Assembly: GCA_022508525.1 (NCBI GenBank)
Contig: JAFLVA010000001.1
Location: forward strand, 26,879 to 90,878
Direction: 5' to 3'
Source: Erysipelotrichales bacterium
Lineage (GTDB): Bacteria; Bacillota_I; Bacilli_A; RFN20; CAG-826
DNA length: 64,000 nucleotides
The notes below the pieces were generated by a model that made no database searches, had not been told where the DNA came from, and saw only the letters and a program-made list of their open reading frames with translations. Below are positions 20,755 through 60,362 of the stretch, piece after piece (the first letter of the stretch is position 1; each line of letters opens with the position of its first letter). Position numbers and translations under genes: made by a program.

Positions 20755-20876
20755 ACCATTACAGTACAAACTGATCAGGCCAAAGCATATGCTTGGAGCC
20801 GGGTTACCTAGTAACAGTGGATCTATTACCCACGGGACAGTAAGTTACAATTACTGGTTCTGTGGGTATTTTATTT
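20755..20876 (+). ncRNA. NiCo (czcD) riboswitch with expression-platform terminator
   Basis: acagtacaaactgatcaggcc...gcttggagccgggttacc...acccacgggacagtaa...ttactggttctgtgggtattttatt, directly upstream of a CDF transporter; aptamer match is from memory of the czcD motif. Confidence 0.72.
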
Positions 20877-32451: not shown

Positions 32452-32488
32452 AAAAAAGGCCGAGACTCCTGCCATAAAAGCAGAAGTC
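32452..32488 (-). terminator. Expression-platform terminator of the fluoride riboswitch
   Basis: Minus strand gacttctgc-ttttat-ggcaggagtc tcggccttttttg; overlaps the aptamer 3' strand. Confidence 0.85.
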
Positions 32489-32540
32489 ATCAGCTAATAA
32501 GCGGTTTTAGTAAAAATACTATGGGAGAACCTCATTCCCA
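32480..32540 (-). ncRNA. Fluoride riboswitch (crcB motif)
   Basis: Minus strand TGGGAATGAGGTTCTCCCAT...AAAACCGCTTATTAGCTGATGACTTCTGC, aligning with recalled crcB pattern GGxxATGAGGxxCxCC..AAACxGC..GCTGATGxCxTCTxC. Confidence 0.92.
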
Positions 32541-32660
32541 AAAAAATTATAACATACAACAGTATTTTTGCAATTAGATTATTTTTTCAAAAGGTGTATT
32601 TTTAAGTTTTATATTAAATACTAATTTAATATATGATAAAATATTTTTGAGGTGACAGAA

Positions 32661-51064: not shown

Positions 51065-51875
51065 TCAAATCTTAAAAAATAATCTTTCTTCACTTTTAAA
51101 AAAGTTTGCAAAAACCAACTTTATTGAAAAATTTGATGATGGTTATCAAACTACAAATACAGTCAACCTATTAACGGAAAATATTATCGATAATAGATTT
51201 TTTAAAAATGTTATTTTAGATGAAAAAATGCTGACAAAAATGGAAAAAGACATATCTTTTCATGGTCTTGTTAGTCCACTTTTAGTTCGTCCAATTGAAA
51301 ATGGAAAATATGAAATAGTTGCAGGTCGTAAGCGTTTGATTTGTGCAAGAAAATTAAATATTAGATCAGTTGTATGTATGGTACATAACTTCAGTGATGA
51401 GAATATGTTACTTTACATGCTTTTTAATGCGAAAAATGAAACAACTAAATCCGTCATTGAAATGGCCACTATTTGTCAGTTGCTATGTAAAAAATTTCAT
51501 TACACACAAGCCACAATTGCAGAATTATTAGATATGTCTCGATCGCAAATTACCAACCTAATGCGCATTTTACAACTTCCTAAACGAATCCAACGAGAGG
51601 TCAGTAAGGGGAGATTAAGTTACGGGCATGCTCGTGCAATTGCTGGATTAAGTGAAGATAAAATAGATGATGTAGTTAATCTAATTTACGAAAAGCGATT
51701 ATCAGTTCGTGACACAGAATATTTAGTAAACGAATTAAAAAATCGCCAAGGATATGATTATTTAATTAGTAATTTTGAAAAAAGAAATAATATCAGAGCA
51801 AAAATCAACGGCAAACAATTAATACTAAGTTTTAAAACAAAAAAGGAAATTAAAAAGTTTATTGTAAAAAAATAA
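51051..51875 (+). CDS. parB: ParB-family protein (degenerate CTPase motifs)
   Basis: [62 protein letters not shown]; overlaps parA. Confidence 0.85.
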
Positions 51876-52093
51876 AAGTTGTGAAAGATTAATTTTTCAC
51901 ATTTTATACAAAAAATGTATATTTTGCTAAACGTATACCATTTTTGTGTATTGGAATTATTTGGTAAATAAATTCAAAGTATTGCTAATAAATTGCAATA
52001 ATTAATGCGAAAAAACGATTTTGTCCAACATTTTGTTCTTGTTTTATCGTCTAAAATGGGTGAAAACAATGCAAATATGGATAGCCTATGTGT

Positions 52094-52122
52094 TTGACAA
52101 GATAGAAATAATATAATATAAT
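52094..52122 (+). promoter_or_regulatory. Perfect-consensus sigma-A promoter
   Basis: TTGACA (52094-52099), exactly 17 bp, TATAAT (52117-52122). Confidence 0.8.
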
Positions 52123-52124
52123 AC

Positions 52125-52154
52125 ACTAAGCCTATAAGGGCTTAGTTATTTTAG
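52125..52154 (+). terminator. Terminator-like hairpin immediately downstream of the promoter (possible attenuator)
   Basis: actaagcc-tataag-ggcttagt followed by tatttt. Confidence 0.5.
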
Positions 52155-52294
52155 AATAGTGCAGCATACTTATTAAAGTGTATTATTTTCAAATTGTTAA
52201 AGTGTTTGATTAAATTATATTTTATGTAGTATTATAGATTGAATATTATACATAGTTATAGTCGTAAAAGGTTTAAAATATATAGTATGGGAGT

Positions 52295-54526
52295 GTGATT
52301 GTTATGACGAAAAGATCAAAGATTACAATTGCTTATTTGCTATTTTTATTAGTTGCATTAATCATTCCAACCATTAATTTTACATTATGTAGATACAAAT
52401 CAAATCATGAATTCAGTATGGTTTTTAGAAATGATGCTTATGACTTGTTTTATGAAATTCGTGATGGTAGTAATTATCTTGATAGTAGTGGTAATTTAAA
52501 AGATGAAATTTTCAATGATAAAAGTACTATTAAAGTAACTAGTGATAAAACAATAAAAGACTACAAAACTGAATATGGTACTGAATATATTGGTTGGAAT
52601 AATAAAAGTTTTACTCTTAGTAGTGTGTTTGGTGCAGATAGAAAAACAATTGTTTATACGGAAGCTTTTGAATTCACTGCAACTATAGATGTTGGATATA
52701 AAGCTGAAGTATACTATTTAAAATCTCATAAACTTGATCGAAATGAAGATGGAGATATTGAATATGAAGCAAATGCTGATGGTGAATATATATACGACAC
52801 ATATCGCGCAACTAGTAAAGATTTTAATTTAACTGATAGACATGGTGTTCCATATAATCCTGCAAATGAAGGATATCCACTTGGAACTGAACCAACATAT
52901 GTGAAAACTAATGATACTGGTAGCGGAAATTATGATATAGAGGTTGATACTTCAATTGGTCCTAGCGCATGTAATTTAACTTATACTGGATATATGAGAG
53001 ATGTTTCTGAGGTTTGGAAAATTGTTGTAGTGTTAATAAAAAAACCTAAAAATCCTGAACCAATATTTGATGCTAGATTATGGACAAACACCGTATATGC
53101 TAATGGTAGATGTACTTGGGGAGAAGATTCCGATCCAAGCTATAAAAATTATCCAAATATTAATCCTGACAAAATAAATGGTGGTACTTGGCAATGGGGG
53201 AAACTCCAATCTACCACGCAACCATTAACAAAAAATGAAGATCCTAATTCAAGATATTATGGAACATATTCATATGATTTTGTTTTCCAAACTAATTCGG
53301 GCGACGATTTTATTTTAGATGCTTTGGAGATAAATAGTGTTCCACTAAATCTTCCATTTGTGCCAGAAAAAGATATATATAAGAGTGAGCATTTGGAAAA
53401 AGTTAAAAAGACTACGTATGGAGGCGATTTTGCCCCGACAGAAGAGGAAGGTTATGATAGGTGTTCGTTAGTTACCTATATTTCTGATGGTATAACCTCT
53501 AAGGGGATGAAAGTAACAGTTACATATCTTAGAGCTTTTACATGGAGTACTGAAAGGACTCAACGCGTGTATAGGGTTTTCATTGAAGGGGCGCGTACAG
53601 ACGTTGTAATTACTGGCGGAAACGTTCATACGTATCAGGGTGCACCAGAAATGATTGTATATAATCTTGCTGGTATTGCAGATGATGCAGTTATAATATT
53701 AGCTAATGGTAAAGAATTTAAAGAGATAAATTCATCTGTTGTTGTATTACAGAACGATTTAGCCGCAATTGAAAAAGTTAAATTTAAGTTGAAAGATTAC
53801 TATGAAAATCCATATGCCAAGCTTACTAGAAAAAATGGTACAACACCAATTGGAGATAAAATAGAATTGGATATTGAACTAGACGATGATGGATACTATG
53901 TAATTGATCTTCATAATGAAATGAATGCATTAAAGAGTCTCGGTGGTGGTCTTATAGGATTATTAAGTATTAAAGCGCTACCAGTAAAATTTGCTATTCA
54001 ATATGATTTAGATACGCCAGAAGTGCCACAAGAAAACGTTTACTTTTTACGTGCTGCTGACTGGTTTAAAAATTCGTATGATAATAACAATGGAAGATAT
54101 TATACGGTTGAAAACACTGATACCATGAAATTCCATGACTTTATACCGTATGATACATCAAACCATTATTTATTCAGTTATTGGCAAGCATCAAAGGGAG
54201 AAGTCGGCGATGACGATTATGAAGATTTTGAAATACATCGTTCTGAATCGTTTAGATTCAATAGACTTTTACATTTTGCTAAAAGATTTGATATAAATAA
54301 TGAAGAAGATCAAAGATATGATGAAGATGGAAATCCTATATATGAAGATGGTATTTATATAATTACTGTAACTGCTGTGTGGGAAGAACAATTTTCAGAG
54401 GGACATGATCACGATACTTTGGATGATGCCTATTCAGAACATTACATGGAGTGGGCATCTATGCCTTTTGAGGAATGGTATATAGAGTGTTGGGATCGAT
54501 GGTATTCGGAATATTGGAATGATTAA
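52295..54526 (+). CDS. Large secreted/anchored protein of the SipW-linked locus
   Basis: N-terminal hydrophobic segment ITIAYLLFLLVALIIPTINFTLCRYKSN; long extracytoplasmic Tyr/Asp-rich region; acidic, aromatic C-terminus EWASMPFEEWYIECWDRWYSEYWND. Confidence 0.7.
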   Translation: MIVMTKRSKITIAYLLFLLVALIIPTINFTLCRYKSNHEFSMVFRNDAYDLFYEIRDGSNYLDSSGNLKDEIFNDKSTIKVTSDKTIKDYKTEYGTEYIGWNNKSFTLSSVFGADRKTIVYTEAFEFTATIDVGYKAEVYYLKSHKLDRNEDGDIEYEANADGEYIYDTYRATSKDFNLTDRHGVPYNPANEGYPLGTEPTYVKTNDTGSGNYDIEVDTSIGPSACNLTYTGYMRDVSEVWKIVVVLIKKPKNPEPIFDARLWTNTVYANGRCTWGEDSDPSYKNYPNINPDKINGGTWQWGKLQSTTQPLTKNEDPNSRYYGTYSYDFVFQTNSGDDFILDALEINSVPLNLPFVPEKDIYKSEHLEKVKKTTYGGDFAPTEEEGYDRCSLVTYISDGITSKGMKVTVTYLRAFTWSTERTQRVYRVFIEGARTDVVITGGNVHTYQGAPEMIVYNLAGIADDAVIILANGKEFKEINSSVVVLQNDLAAIEKVKFKLKDYYENPYAKLTRKNGTTPIGDKIELDIELDDDGYYVIDLHNEMNALKSLGGGLIGLLSIKALPVKFAIQYDLDTPEVPQENVYFLRAADWFKNSYDNNNGRYYTVENTDTMKFHDFIPYDTSNHYLFSYWQASKGEVGDDDYEDFEIHRSESFRFNRLLHFAKRFDINNEEDQRYDEDGNPIYEDGIYIITVTAVWEEQFSEGHDHDTLDDAYSEHYMEWASMPFEEWYIECWDRWYSEYWND

Positions 54527-54572
54527 TTTTGATAATTAACTTATAAATTTAAAATAAGGAGTGTGATAATAA

Positions 54573-55283
54573 ATGGTTATAAATAGCAAAAAAAGTAGAA
54601 CAATAAAAACTGTACTAACCTTTTTAGTTGTTGGACTTCTTACAGGCTTTGTAAGCTATACATATGCAAAGTTTTTTACTTCTATTTCTACACCTCAAGA
54701 TGGAGCGGGTTCGGCAAAATGGGGGACAATCGACATAAGAGAACATATTCTTATAGAAGAAATTCCTGATGAGGAAAGCGAAGAAAAAGTAAAATACCGT
54801 TTTAGTGAAGAAACATATCCAATTGAAAACAATAGCGAAACATTGTATACAAATTTGCGTACAGGTAAGAATATCCCTTTTTACCCATGCGTTTATTTAA
54901 AAGGAACTTTTGAAGTATCATTTTGGTTGTATTTAAAGATAGTGGAAACAAATTATAATGACTATAAACCAATTGAATTCCATATAGATGCAGAAAAGTG
55001 GGAAAAAGGACAATATAACAGAACTCCTAAAAATGGTGCGGCGCCGGAAGTTATAACGACAATATATAGATATAAAAACAAACTTCCTAATGAAGTTGAT
55101 TCTGACCATGATCATCCAGATATTCCAGGTGCAGGATCGACAATTGAAAAGGAAATTGAAATCAATATTCTCGAGCACAATGCCTTACATGTTACTAAAG
55201 AATTCGATATTGAGCATTATGATGGATATGATTTGAAGCTTTCTGCGTGGATTCAGCAAATTAATGATCCGAGCAAAAAATAG
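54573..55283 (+). CDS. Secreted protein with SipW-dependent-type signal region
   Basis: MVINSKKSRTIKTVLTFLVVGLLTGFVSYTYAKFFTSISTPQDGAGSAKWGTIDI, similar in layout to the 55807-region protein. Confidence 0.65.
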   Translation: MVINSKKSRTIKTVLTFLVVGLLTGFVSYTYAKFFTSISTPQDGAGSAKWGTIDIREHILIEEIPDEESEEKVKYRFSEETYPIENNSETLYTNLRTGKNIPFYPCVYLKGTFEVSFWLYLKIVETNYNDYKPIEFHIDAEKWEKGQYNRTPKNGAAPEVITTIYRYKNKLPNEVDSDHDHPDIPGAGSTIEKEIEINILEHNALHVTKEFDIEHYDGYDLKLSAWIQQINDPSKK

Positions 55284-55312
55284 TATAACTGTAGACTATA
55301 TAGTAATTTATA

Positions 55313-55338
55313 AGTAGACCATTGGGTCTACTTTTTGT
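55313..55338 (+). terminator. Terminator
   Basis: agtagacc-attg-ggtctactttttgttt. Confidence 0.85.
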
Positions 55339-55645
55339 TTATAATGAGCATATGTCGTCATATATTTATTGAGATTTAAAATCAATATTGTGTAATATGC
55401 TATATGATGAGGACATATAAATATAAAGGATGAATTGTATACGATTAAATTAATATAAGTGTCGTTATTATGTTTTTATTATTAAACAGTATTATAAAAC
55501 AATTAAAAAAAGCAGTAGTTAAAAAGTTGTTTATTGACAAAAAAACCGAAATGCAATACATATCCAGAAAATGGCAAATTCTATATATTTAAAGTGTGAA
55601 TGTTTTAGATAAACTGAAAAATGTACAGAAAATAAGGTGGATTTT

Positions 55646-55732
55646 ATGTGCTTTGACAATAAATGGAATTCTAGTAATTCGTGCCCTCGTGTCGCTGAAC
55701 AGACATTAAAAAAATACTACTATTATTTATAA
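55646..55732 (+). CDS. Possible 28-aa peptide ending in Tyr x4-Leu
   Basis: aaggtgg RBS then ATG; MCFDNKWNSSNSCPRVAEQTLKKYYYYL*; too short to establish by eye. Confidence 0.3.
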   Translation: MCFDNKWNSSNSCPRVAEQTLKKYYYYL

Positions 55733-55744
55733 TAGTAAAAAATA

Positions 55745-55773
55745 TTGACATTAATTTACATAAATGTTATATT
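55745..55773 (+). promoter_or_regulatory. Promoter for the TasA-like gene
   Basis: TTGACA (55745-55750), 17 bp, TATATT (55768-55773). Confidence 0.65.
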
Positions 55774-55848
55774 AATGTAGCAATTTTATATATACATTAT
55801 GTATATATGAAAAGTTTATTTTTTAAAACTTATAGGAGGATAAAAGTT

Positions 55849-56622
55849 ATGAAAAAAGAAACTAAAAGAAAAGTCGTAGTAGTCGCAGGTGCTCTTGCAT
55901 TAATTGCAGCTGTTGGTACAACAGCAGGTACAACATTTGCAAAGTATGCTAATAGTGCATCAAAAGATGCTACATCAGCAACAGTTGCAAAGTGGGGATT
56001 CACAGTTTCAGCAACTGGTCAATTGTTTGGCAAAATGTATGGCACTGATACTAAAATTACCACAGTTGATGGCAGTGCAGTTATTGCTAGTGCTGGAGAT
56101 TATAATGTTGTCGCTCCTGGATCAAGTGGTTCTATAACTTTCACTATTAATGGTACAGCAGAAGTGAATGCAAGAATTAAAGTTGAAGTTGCGGCTGAAG
56201 ATGCAGATGATAACAAAGGCAAGTTCCAAGATATATCTTTAACAAAAGCTGAATCCGAACAAGGCGCAAAAGATAACTGGACTTATAATCCAATTAAATG
56301 GACAATGACCGCAAATGGTAGTACAGCAGCAGCTCCAGTTGCTAATAATTTAGTTGAAAGCAATCTTAGATCTTGGAATAATTCAATAGATTATAAAGCA
56401 AATGGCACTAGGGTTGATTTGACATATACACTTTCTTGGGAGTGGAAATTTGAAGATGGTAAAAATGACGCAGAAAAAGCTGAAATCAATGAAAAAGATA
56501 CAATCCTTGGTACAATGAGTCATAACAATAAGACAACAGACGGATTATATACTGCAGTTACTACACTTAAAATTCCACAAATTAAAGTTTCAGTTGAACA
56601 AATTAATACTGTTGTAGACTAA
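55849..56622 (+). CDS. TasA/camelysin-like SipW-dependent secreted protein (putative major fibre subunit)
   Basis: MKKETKRKVVVVAGALALIAAVGTTAGTTFAKYANSASKDATSATVAKWGFTVSATG; ATG near 55849 after taggagg RBS; beta-rich sequence. Confidence 0.72.
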   Translation: MKKETKRKVVVVAGALALIAAVGTTAGTTFAKYANSASKDATSATVAKWGFTVSATGQLFGKMYGTDTKITTVDGSAVIASAGDYNVVAPGSSGSITFTINGTAEVNARIKVEVAAEDADDNKGKFQDISLTKAESEQGAKDNWTYNPIKWTMTANGSTAAAPVANNLVESNLRSWNNSIDYKANGTRVDLTYTLSWEWKFEDGKNDAEKAEINEKDTILGTMSHNNKTTDGLYTAVTTLKIPQIKVSVEQINTVVD

Positions 56623-56697
56623 ACAAATTAACAAAAACTAACACAGATTCTCTGCTTGTATAAAGCAGGTGGAGTTTCTTGTTTTGGAGGTAAGATT

Positions 56698-57519
56698 ATG
56701 CCTGATTTTAAGGTTAGTAAAAAAGATTTGCTAGTTATAGATAGCGAAAATCAAGCAGTCTATGCCATTAGAAAAAACAAAGAAATATGTGACCTGGATG
56801 GTAATGTTGTAGCAAAGTTTGCATCAAAAGAAAAAAGAAAAAATGGAAATAAGAAAGAAAAAGTTACTGTTTATAATTCTGAAAATGGCACGTTTTCATG
56901 TACTAAAGACAAATTGTTTTTAAATGATAAATTAGTTGGAAATGTCAAAAAGAATCGTATTGGCAGTACTGGAAGTTCCAATTTGTCTATTGTGATGTTA
57001 TCTTTAGCTGCATTAGTTGGTACTTTTGTTTTTATCTCACTAATTAGTACGCCAATTTCTGGTGATGTAATTCCAGTATTTGATGTTGTAGATAATAATG
57101 GTGTTTGGGAAGAACAAGGTACGATTTCAGTCTTTGATTCTAAAATTTATCCAGGAAAAAGTGGTAAATATGATTTTGTAATGACAAATGAATCTGTTGG
57201 TAAACTTATATATGGATTCTCATTGACAGGGGAAACGTATTATGGCGATCTCGAATATAATTACTTTATGCAATATCGTTTGAAAATGAACAATAAATAC
57301 ATAAGTAATTATGAAAAAAGAGATCCTGAAGATTGGTTAAGAGCAGATGAGTTGATTTATGAAGATATAGTATTTCTCCCAGCGACACAACAATTAATGA
57401 CATTAGAATGGCAATGGCCATTTGAGTCCGGCAAAGATGAAAGCGATACACAATTCGGTGTTGAAGCTGGAAAGTATTCCATCGTCTTAAGTGTGAAAGC
57501 TGAGGTTTACTTAGAATAA
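56698..57519 (+). CDS. Membrane-anchored accessory protein with TasA-like extracytoplasmic domain
   Basis: Start inferred at 56698 (ttggaggt RBS); internal TM LSIVMLSLAALVGTFVFISLIS; GKYDFVMTNESVGKLIYGFSLTGE and MTLEWQWPFESG, compare LSWEWKFEDGKNDAE in the preceding protein. Confidence 0.65.
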   Translation: MPDFKVSKKDLLVIDSENQAVYAIRKNKEICDLDGNVVAKFASKEKRKNGNKKEKVTVYNSENGTFSCTKDKLFLNDKLVGNVKKNRIGSTGSSNLSIVMLSLAALVGTFVFISLISTPISGDVIPVFDVVDNNGVWEEQGTISVFDSKIYPGKSGKYDFVMTNESVGKLIYGFSLTGETYYGDLEYNYFMQYRLKMNNKYISNYEKRDPEDWLRADELIYEDIVFLPATQQLMTLEWQWPFESGKDESDTQFGVEAGKYSIVLSVKAEVYLE

Positions 57520-58100
57520 TGGCACAAGAACAAGCAAAGAAAAAAAACATATTAAGAATAACCCTTTATAGCATATTTGGAGTTGTTCTATCGTTCTTCT
57601 TAGTAATGGAAGTTTGTTTGCTTTCGCAAAAATATATTATGAAATCCAAAGCTCCTAATTTTTTAGGATATGGTTCCGCAATTGTCGCTACAGGCAGTAT
57701 GTCTGGTACTATTAATAAAGGTGACATGGTCATATTCAAAAAGACAGATGTTTATAAACTAGGAGATATTGTAACATTTGATGATCCGTTCGTAAGTTAT
57801 CCAGTTACACATAGAATTGTTAACTATGGTTCTGAAAAAGGAACATTTGTTACAAAGGGTGACTGGAATACATCAACAGATTCTAGAACAATTACTAAGG
57901 AACAAATCTATGGTAAGGTAGTAAAAGTTATTCCTAGTGTTGGTTGGTTTACTAGTGATCCTGAAGTTGGTGAGAATGGATGGGTTTATTTCGCTGCTGT
58001 TATTGTGATTGCTGCTGGTATGATTTATTTATTAAAGATAAAACCAGATGATAAGAAAAAAATAGAAGACAAAAATGATAAGGAGGAACATTTAGTATGA
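57519..58100 (+). CDS. sipW: Signal peptidase I, SipW/ER-type (S26B)
   Basis: ATGSMSGTINKGDMVIFKK (Ser), SYPVTHRIV (His replaces Lys), TKGDWNTSTDSRTI; two TM segments. Confidence 0.9.
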   Translation: MAQEQAKKKNILRITLYSIFGVVLSFFLVMEVCLLSQKYIMKSKAPNFLGYGSAIVATGSMSGTINKGDMVIFKKTDVYKLGDIVTFDDPFVSYPVTHRIVNYGSEKGTFVTKGDWNTSTDSRTITKEQIYGKVVKVIPSVGWFTSDPEVGENGWVYFAAVIVIAAGMIYLLKIKPDDKKKIEDKNDKEEHLV

Positions 58101-59218
58101 TACCTTGGAATGAAGAAACAAAATTAATTCTTCTTATAATTGTGGCGGCTATTTTATTAATTGCTGTTTTCGCATTTATTATTGAATTAGTTAGAGGAAG
58201 AAACGCACATGCTGGAAATGTAAATATATATGTAAGACAAATTTCAGAAAAAGATGTGCCAAAGGAAGAACCTAAAGAAGAAGTTAAACAAGTACAAGAA
58301 CGCGTTCTCTTAGGATTATCAGTTAATACTGATAATATTAAAAAAGAATACACAGCCGGTGATGAATTCTGTGCTGATGGATTAGTTGTAACAGCACATT
58401 ACAATCTAGATCCTGTAACAGAAGAGGTTAAAAACTTTGAAATTGAACCGGTGAATATGAATCAAGTTGGTATGCCTATTGTGACTGTAAAATATGCTGA
58501 TAAGAGCGTTGGATTCCAAATTACAATTAATCCTGTTGTTGTTGAAGAACAACCAGAAGTAATTCATGTGAAAAAAGATCCAGTTGTTGTTACAGAAGAA
58601 TCATATGAAAGTGGAAAACTACGTTATGATAGAAGTTTTACAGCACGTTATATTCAATCTGATGATGAAATAAAACTTTGGTATACTGAAATAAAGAATA
58701 ATTTACTTTCATATAAAAAAGTTAAGGCACGTATGAGTTGGAAACGTGAATCATTCCGTTATGGCCGTGAGCAATTCGCAAAATTAAGCTATCGTGGAAA
58801 TACACTTTGTTTATTCTTGCCACTAAATGCTGCTGATTTTGAAGATACAAAATATAAAGTTGAAGATGTTTCTGACAATAACAATTATGCTGAAACTCCA
58901 TGTATGTATCGTATAAAGAATGCTCGTCGTGCAAAATATGCATTAGAGTTAATCGCAATTGCTTCAGAAAAATACGATATACCACTTGTAGCACATGAAG
59001 CTGAAGATTTCTATGTTCCTTATGAAGGTTTAGTAGAATTAATCAATAAAGGCTTAATTAAACGTAATATTAAGTCAAAAGAAGATGAAGCATTCTTTAA
59101 CGGAAATAATGTAGAAGAAGTTGAAGAGCAACCATCTGAAAAAGAAGTTGCACCTGGACTTATCGTTAAAACAGAAACTAAAAAAGGTAAGTCTAAGAAT
59201 CTTGTAACTACAAAATAA
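58097..59218 (+). CDS. Membrane-anchored protein with bacterial Ig-like (Big_3-like) domain
   Basis: N-terminal TM; LGLSVNTDNIKKEYTAGDEFCADGLVVTAHYN...VGMPIVTVKYADKSVGFQITI; overlaps the sipW stop. Confidence 0.75.
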   Translation: MIPWNEETKLILLIIVAAILLIAVFAFIIELVRGRNAHAGNVNIYVRQISEKDVPKEEPKEEVKQVQERVLLGLSVNTDNIKKEYTAGDEFCADGLVVTAHYNLDPVTEEVKNFEIEPVNMNQVGMPIVTVKYADKSVGFQITINPVVVEEQPEVIHVKKDPVVVTEESYESGKLRYDRSFTARYIQSDDEIKLWYTEIKNNLLSYKKVKARMSWKRESFRYGREQFAKLSYRGNTLCLFLPLNAADFEDTKYKVEDVSDNNNYAETPCMYRIKNARRAKYALELIAIASEKYDIPLVAHEAEDFYVPYEGLVELINKGLIKRNIKSKEDEAFFNGNNVEEVEEQPSEKEVAPGLIVKTETKKGKSKNLVTTK

Positions 59219-59232
59219 AATATTATAAATAA

Positions 59233-59283
59233 AGACTGTTTGACAATCTAAGTTAAATACTTGGCGAATAACAGTCTTTTTTA
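59233..59283 (+). terminator. Long-loop terminator closing the sipW locus
   Basis: agactgtt...aacagtcttttttatt with ~29-nt loop. Confidence 0.7.
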
Positions 59284-59348
59284 TTGCACATTTTTTAAAA
59301 TTAATCATATTATATTATTTTGCCTATTAAATTTATATTGGTGATAAT

Positions 59349-60362
59349 ATGAAATTTTTATTAAAAATATTTTTTGTCTTGACATCACTTATTGGAATAA
59401 CATCTAAAACTGAGCAAGTAAATGATGGTATTTATGCAAGATCATATGTTGTGATGGAACAAAATAGTGGAAATCTATTAGAAAGTAAAGATTGTAATTT
59501 AAAAAGAAGTGTAGCAAGTGTATCTAAAATAATGACTGCAATTCTTGCAATTGAAAGTGACAATCTGTTTAATGCTGTTACGGTTGGTGAAGAAATAAAA
59601 ACGATTGTAGGAAGTTCCTTATATCTTGCGGAAGGCACAAATGTAAATATTATTGAATTAGTGTACGGACTTCTTCTTCGTAGTGGAAACGATGCTGCTG
59701 TTACTATTGCCAAAAACGTTGGTGGATCAATTGAAGATTTTGTGTCAATGATGAATAACAAAGCTCAAGAGATAGGCATGAAAAACACCGTTTTTTCTAA
59801 TCCTAGTGGCTTAGATATGTATGATGAGGGAAATGTATCTACTAGCTATGATTTAGCTTTATTGATGCGTTATTGCATGAATAATGGTACATTTAGAGAA
59901 ATCAATAGAACACAGACATTTAAATCATCTGTAAAAGGCACATGGTCTAATAAGCATAAGTTAATTCAAAATTATGAATACGCAATTGGTGGAAAGACAG
60001 GATATACCAAAAAGGCCAAAAGAACACTTATTACAAGTGCAAGAAAAGATGATCTAGAATTAATAGTAGTCACTCTTGATTGTGGCTCGGATTTTGCGTT
60101 TCATAAAGCTAAATTTGAGCGATACTTTGCAAGTCATACGTATCTTACTTTTTTGAATAAGGGCACTAATTATATTCTTAATTATGAAATTGTTGTAGAT
60201 AAAGAATATGGAATAATAATTGAAAATTTAAAGTTAAAAAATGTTACGAAACATTATCAAATAAATCCAAAAAATAATGAAGTTAAAATGTATCTTGTTT
60301 TTGATGATAATAGTTCAATTGAAGTTGGAAGAGCTAAAGTCATAACTTTTAAAATCAATTAG
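59349..60362 (+). CDS. D-alanyl-D-alanine carboxypeptidase (PBP5/DacF family)
   Basis: SVASVSKIMTAILAIE (SxxK), RSGNDAAV (SxN), YAIGGKTGYTKKAKRTLITSA (KTG). Confidence 0.94.
   Translation: MKFLLKIFFVLTSLIGITSKTEQVNDGIYARSYVVMEQNSGNLLESKDCNLKRSVASVSKIMTAILAIESDNLFNAVTVGEEIKTIVGSSLYLAEGTNVNIIELVYGLLLRSGNDAAVTIAKNVGGSIEDFVSMMNNKAQEIGMKNTVFSNPSGLDMYDEGNVSTSYDLALLMRYCMNNGTFREINRTQTFKSSVKGTWSNKHKLIQNYEYAIGGKTGYTKKAKRTLITSARKDDLELIVVTLDCGSDFAFHKAKFERYFASHTYLTFLNKGTNYILNYEIVVDKEYGIIIENLKLKNVTKHYQINPKNNEVKMYLVFDDNSSIEVGRAKVITFKIN

Follow-up and report, generated by a model that had tools for sequence, protein, structure and literature searches.

Organization of the six-gene block

We analyzed a stretch of 64,000 nucleotides (the window, whose numbering is used below unless a contig is named) from an Erysipelotrichales bacterium (contig JAFLVA010000001.1, positions 26,879 to 90,878). 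The window is part of a genome of 1.47 Mb that is 92% complete (G000). Our subject is a block of six genes on the + strand, within an insertion at 51880..59287, that encodes a SipW-like signal peptidase together with several predicted TasA-like proteins. The open reading frames (ORFs) named in a first-pass annotation of this DNA are all present where it had placed them. In order, they encode a large protein of 740 amino acids (aa; 52304..54526) with an acidic/aromatic tail, a divergent TasA-like protein of 236 aa (54573..55283), a putative major TasA-like subunit of 257 aa (55849..56622), a membrane-anchored TasA-like protein of 273 aa (56698..57519), a SipW-like signal peptidase of endoplasmic reticulum (ER) type of 193 aa (57519..58100), and a membrane protein of 373 aa (58097..59218); products are referred to below by the first coordinate of their genes. 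The first of these had been described as a 743-aa giant. Its start is better placed at ATG 52304, behind GGAG; GTG at 52295 falls within the ribosome-binding spacing. Start codons of 55849 (ATG 55849) and 56698 (ATG 56698, behind GGAGG) were also assigned from ribosome-binding sites.

Judging from two promoter-like sites (52094 and 55745) and terminator-like hairpins (55312 and 59231), the block probably consists of two transcription units. The promoter of the first unit, TTGACA-17-TATAAT (52094..52122, + strand), agrees with the consensus at 12/12 positions; its spacer is mostly different in a congeneric genome, G003, although both hexamers and the 17-base spacing are kept. The second promoter, TTGACA-17-TATATT with a TG (55745..55773, + strand), agrees at 11/12 positions. 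The first unit ends in an intrinsic terminator-like element (55312..55337, + strand; hairpin at 55312-55333) and the second in a terminator-like hairpin with the arms AAAGACTGTT...AACAGTCTTT-TTTT (59231..59283, + strand), the latter recognized by reading the sequence. At the predicted transcription start of the first unit there is an inverted repeat, ACTAAGCC...GGCTTAGT (52125..52146, + strand), which could be an operator or a hairpin at the 5' end of the mRNA; its stem is kept in G003, where the loop is different and shorter.

An ER-type signal peptidase and its predicted substrates

The 57519 product scores 69.3 bits against TIGR02228 (ER-type, S26B; cut-off 51.85), which places it within this family, and its Pfam S26 score is barely above the cut-off. 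Ser60, His98, Asp115 and Asp121 do not vary across an alignment of eight sequences, and Ser/His/Asp replaces Ser/Lys, which is the ER-type arrangement. The ER-type peptidase with a Ser/His arrangement proposed by the first-pass annotation is thus confirmed. The enzyme is 72% identical to its counterpart in G003. A canonical signal peptidase I (Lep) is encoded elsewhere in the genome (G000 C1:16829-17305, E 2e-37), which rules out SipW as the sole signal peptidase; the window enzyme is therefore an additional one, consistent with a dedicated role. In another genome, a 394-aa open frame with a SipW-like start overlaps an M73 match (L093, G455 C97); here SipW and a TasA-like domain are possibly fused.

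In three proteins of the window (740, 236 and 257 aa) a SipW-type site closes the hydrophobic N-terminus. The 54573 and 55849 products have a common layout, a transmembrane segment (TM) followed by A-K-[YF]...A-K-W-G, seen as YAKFF...SAKWG in the former and as FAKYANS...VAKWGF in the latter. At least two substrates with this layout had been predicted, and to these we add a third, the large protein, whose signal ends in FTLCRYKSN. The 273-aa protein 56698 has no SipW-type site. We formulated the signal end as a hydrophobic core followed by [TSYIV]x[ASGC][KR][YF], a rule that was composed after the window proteins had been seen and is descriptive for those. Across nine wide sipW loci it picked 13 of 110 ORFs, 12 of them plausible, and among controls (50 other ORFs of the window and 92 ORFs of control loci) it picked only one gene, for a nucleoside-gate membrane protein. 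The SipW-dependent signal-peptide model TIGR04088 matched no window protein and one relative (0.015).

Remote similarity to TasA

The motifs T-x-A-K-Y, A-K-W, A-P-G-x-x-G and V-x-A, a W and a Q are shared by eight TasA-like proteins, which come from six genomes. The target for profile-profile comparison with hhalign was TasA, whose sequence was confirmed against PDB 8AUR, aligned with M73 proteins of the class. The 55849 family matched this alignment with a probability of 94.7%, from the signal through donor region and PG box to the next strand, and the value rises to 96.3% with 40 family members. Shuffling the mature columns while leaving the signal peptide intact lowers the score from 58.4 to 35.6 +/- 0.3. 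On its own, the mature part reaches 26.1, compared with 7.4 +/- 1.4 for shuffled columns, and 0 of 150 shuffles attain 26.1. Without the signal region the profile probability of the mature part is only 7.8-9.4%, and the link to TasA therefore rests on the shuffles and on the order of several short conserved parts; donor region, PG box and the strand after it line up in the order they have in TasA. Profile-profile homology that includes the PG box and the donor region puts the 55849 family with PF12389, and in at least three genomes proteins are matched at the same place by Pfam M73 and by the family profile (G303 C13, G310 C1, G394 C66). On these comparisons, the 55849 product is a remote relative of TasA/camelysin.

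The low probability for the mature region would also be expected if these were ordinary surface genes, whose likeness to TasA had arisen convergently among secreted, beta-rich proteins that have an APG turn. We consider this quite improbable, because the mature score still exceeds that of every shuffle and the three conserved parts keep their order; the genomic neighborhoods described below argue against it as well. No meaningful match was obtained in PDB sequence searches with the family profiles, the TapA model TIGR04087 and the BsaA model TIGR04090 matched no window protein, and a scan of viral contigs for TasA-like and SipW proteins found no relative.

The 54573 product is more divergent. 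The family profile matches its N-terminus (E 6.6e-4), and at 7e-15 the protein matches a 183-aa paralogue encoded in its own genome, close to where contig C34 ends; a joint profile of the two proteins matched the TasA-like family at 94.7%. Mature-only shuffle results are modest for 54573. Through this intermediate, the protein is, by sequence, a divergent TasA-like protein. The paralogue belongs to a second cluster (G000 C34:100000-104895, L161), which also encodes a 180-aa BsaA-like protein and a 776-aa lipoprotein. The 180-aa protein, adjacent to the paralogue, matches TIGR04090, "BsaA family SipW-dependent biofilm matrix protein", at 2.6e-6, which is below the cut-off. No sipW was found on the stretch examined, where the contig ends, and one sipW was found genome-wide, so that the SipW of the window may serve the second cluster too.

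Conservation and probable movement of the block

In a first survey of 58 relatives, the genome itself included, 55849 had matches in five genomes, and in all five the matching gene adjoins a sipW. The second survey applied the family profile to 397 genomes of the class, of which 32 gave matches; 29 loci were examined, among them those of the window genome and of two genomes that had supplied rows of the profile; a SipW is encoded at most 1.5 kb away in 25 of the 29. Such adjacency is a further argument against convergence, and as co-conservation with sipW it supports the earlier interpretation of the locus. In congener G003, the nearest genome with the block, all six genes lie together, with protein identities of 46-85%, and conservation of the whole set at this level indicates more than chance association. 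The trio of TasA-like, anchored TasA-like and sipW genes is found in the same order in G050.

The block lies between parB and dacF. In congeners G001, G002 and G003 the counterpart of the gene at window position 59349 directly follows parB, and the parB-dacF junction is empty, whereas in the window it holds 7.4 kb (51880-59287); in a blastn comparison with the empty site of G003, only window positions 51500-51879 and 59288-59599 match. The six-gene block of G003 is located on another contig with other neighbors. The two blocks share DNA that starts inside the promoter, at 52109, and runs to 59239; similarity drops in a gap between the two units. The set has probably been inherited or moved as one block. 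No transposase or terminal repeats were seen that would explain a move, and single 10-base matches between the ends are unconvincing.

Beside the block of G003, and not beside that of the window, there are a gene for a sigma factor of extracytoplasmic function (ECF) type and a gene for an anti-sigma-like membrane protein (L036:12337-13810). We rejected the sigma gene as a part of the system, as its nearest relatives in the window genome are on other contigs or far from the block. A 24217-aa open frame in one genome was also dropped, because it overlaps masked N sequence.

Relatives of the 740-aa protein were found only in G003 (83% identical) and none outside the two species, and the protein belongs to no Pfam or NCBIfam family. 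Large proteins at other sipW loci differ from it, with PARCEL/DUF285 repeats in G050 and a beta-helix in G048. G003 additionally carries a broken start of a large-protein gene between the counterparts of 54573 and 55849 (L036:8679-8942, G003 C12:50678-50941; E 7.9e-4, four stop codons), which suggests duplication and decay of large-protein genes.

Membrane-anchored proteins encoded beside sipW

The 56698 product has an N-terminal cytoplasmic part of about 95 aa, one TM and a TasA-like outer domain. The outer domain matches the TasA-like family in hhalign over 108-112 columns at 96.0%, and at 98.1% with a deeper profile; the scores of 60 and 82 compare with shuffle averages of 11-12, and the family hidden Markov model finds the protein directly. 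The protein is almost certainly, as far as profile comparison can tell, an uncleaved membrane-anchored paralogue of the TasA-like family. It is conserved with sipW in G003 and G050, and the cytoplasmic part is present in G000 and G003 and lacking in the G050 version.

The 58097 product consists of a single N-terminal TM followed by R-G-R, a Big_3 domain (PF07523, E 1.7e-5) and a C-terminal domain. The latter was found in 202 of the 246 genomes surveyed from the order, and in very long membrane proteins it frequently recurs in several copies along the C-terminal tail. Tandem copies are present in such proteins at L059, L063 and L067, and in the tails at L058-L070; these tails look cytoplasmic. 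Several of the giant surface proteins have a domain of ribosomal type, uL15/L18e (PF00828, E down to 1.2e-13), at the very end of the tail. The positive residues after the TM indicate that the Ig-like and C-terminal domains of 58097 probably face the cytoplasm, and the uL15-type tail ends suggest the same for the C-terminal domain, and hence for most of the protein. The two proteins had been annotated as a pair of anchored accessory proteins, with the Ig-like one, 58097, as an outer-surface component. Both genes exist, and the pairing is not supported, given that 56698 is a TasA-like subunit and 58097 carries a domain of giant-surface-protein tails; the positive residues of 58097 speak against its outer location.

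The cytoplasmic parts of these proteins allow another interpretation, in which 56698 and 58097, instead of anchoring the fibre, would be a trans-envelope sensor pair through which the cytoplasm is informed of fibre assembly. Besides the topology of 58097 and the cytoplasmic part of 56698, the position of the two genes on either side of sipW in one unit speaks for it. We find it very improbable, as 56698 occurs in G050 without its cytoplasmic part, the block encodes no kinase, sigma factor or DNA-binding partner, and the relatives of the G003 ECF-type sigma gene in the window genome are distant from the block. A broader proposal, that the block is a movable cassette in which a TM-retaining TasA-like subunit links an outer fibre to cytoplasmic 58097, with its C-terminal domain of giant-protein tails, as a trans-envelope device for anchoring or signaling, is speculative and in our estimate unlikely; no such device is known for TasA fibres.

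A putative assembly set for a surface fibre

We interpret the six-gene block, with a probability of roughly 0.75, as a self-contained gene set that would secrete and assemble a surface fibre of TasA/BsaA type. The dedicated SipW-dependent system of TasA-like fibres suggested by the first-pass annotation is largely supported at the level of sequence, by the peptidase, the three signal ends, the profile similarity and the co-conservation of sipW.

TasA forms donor-strand fibres (PMC9674648), BsaA filaments require sipW (PMC7395162), and TapA is the initiator of the TasA fibre (PMC10151520). By analogy, the 55849, 54573 and 740-aa proteins would pass through Sec, and SipW (57519) would cut them just before K/R-Y/F, as the motif and the SipW enzymes of Bacillus and Clostridium suggest. 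The freed N-terminal segment of 55849, KYANSASKDATSATVAKWGFTV, may then act, as in TasA, as the donor strand that completes the beta-sandwich of the next subunit to give a fibre. The 56698 protein, which keeps its TM, would display a TasA-like domain at the membrane; its probable role is to start or anchor the fibre, as TapA does in B. subtilis, with 58097 as a putative membrane partner on the cytoplasmic side. We would guess that 54573 is a minor subunit and that the 740-aa protein is an adhesin carried by the fibre or the cell surface.

Several results weigh against this interpretation. Pfam Peptidase_M73 (PF12389) leaves 55849, 54573 and 56698 unmatched at E <= 1 and has no match genome-wide. 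AlphaFold models are poor, with a predicted local distance difference test (pLDDT) score of 42 for 55849 and 36 for the outer domain of 56698, probably as a result of alignments of two sequences (window and locus L045), and when the pLDDT-42 model of 55849 was searched against PDB folds, nothing reached E <= 0.001 and TasA was absent from the best 50. The peptidase scores 52.8 bits against the SipW equivalog NF046067, far below the cut-off of 190, and is a SipW-like peptidase and not the Bacillus SipW equivalog. The block contains no regulator gene, and the mature part of the 740-aa protein has no similarity to the TasA-like family.

The earliest description of camelysin was as a surface protease. 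This, the presence of the 740-aa secreted protein in the set, and the different large secreted proteins beside sipW at other loci (G050, G048) are what one would expect if the small proteins were camelysin-like SipW substrates that stay monomeric on or near the membrane, as surface proteins or enzymes, and serve the display of the large protein, the functional product. We regard this as unlikely, since the TasA, CalY and BsaA proteins studied beside a sipW all polymerize (PMC9674648, PMC7395162, PMC13082335). Moreover, the donor-strand region and the PG box are the parts conserved here, which parallels TasA, in which the most conserved residues lie at the subunit interface (PMC10151520).

Comparison with known systems

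The gene content of the block had been judged to be unlike that of tapA-sipW-tasA and of the B. cereus calY locus, and comparison bears this out. The block resembles B. subtilis tapA-sipW-tasA (PMC9674648, PMC10151520) in its ER-type SipW, in a major subunit that is TasA-like and has both donor-strand region and PG box, and in an accessory protein that possibly starts the fibre. In contrast to B. subtilis, it has no TapA; its accessory protein is TasA-like, anchored in the membrane and extended into the cytoplasm. It adds a further TasA-like protein, the 740-aa protein and the 373-aa membrane protein, and its TasA-like proteins are unmatched by the M73 Pfam model. With C. perfringens sipW-bsaABCRSD (PMC7395162) it has in common that sipW is accompanied by a small major subunit and by secreted accessory proteins, and the second cluster of the genome has a weak match to the BsaA family (TIGR04090). 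Unlike that locus, the block lacks a two-component system, has sipW downstream of the subunits and not first, and includes an anchored subunit and a large protein. As in the sipW-tasA, capP and calY genes of B. cereus (PMC13082335), one SipW would serve at least two TasA-like proteins from more than one transcription unit, whereas no CapP-like protein (DUF4047) is found in the block by Pfam and an anchored TasA-like protein is present instead. Archaeal bundling pili, named in PMC9674648, place TasA-related donor-strand fibres in a wide family; the likeness to them is by description only.

We found no description of this gene set in the open PubMed Central (PMC) literature. The block would extend fibres of TasA/BsaA type to a group of uncultured Bacilli with small genomes. 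The conserved core appears to be a TasA-like subunit and SipW, joined in some genomes by the anchored TasA-like protein, with large proteins that vary by genome. This suggests that a TasA fibre may be held at the membrane without TapA, through a paralogue that retains its TM. If the block moves as a unit, a single transfer could pass surface fibres together with their adhesins from one bacterium to another.

RNA elements in the window

An Rfam scan gave no match within the block. Elsewhere in the window it identified a NiCo riboswitch (20761-20842, + strand) and a fluoride riboswitch (32474-32548, - strand), both above the cut-offs.

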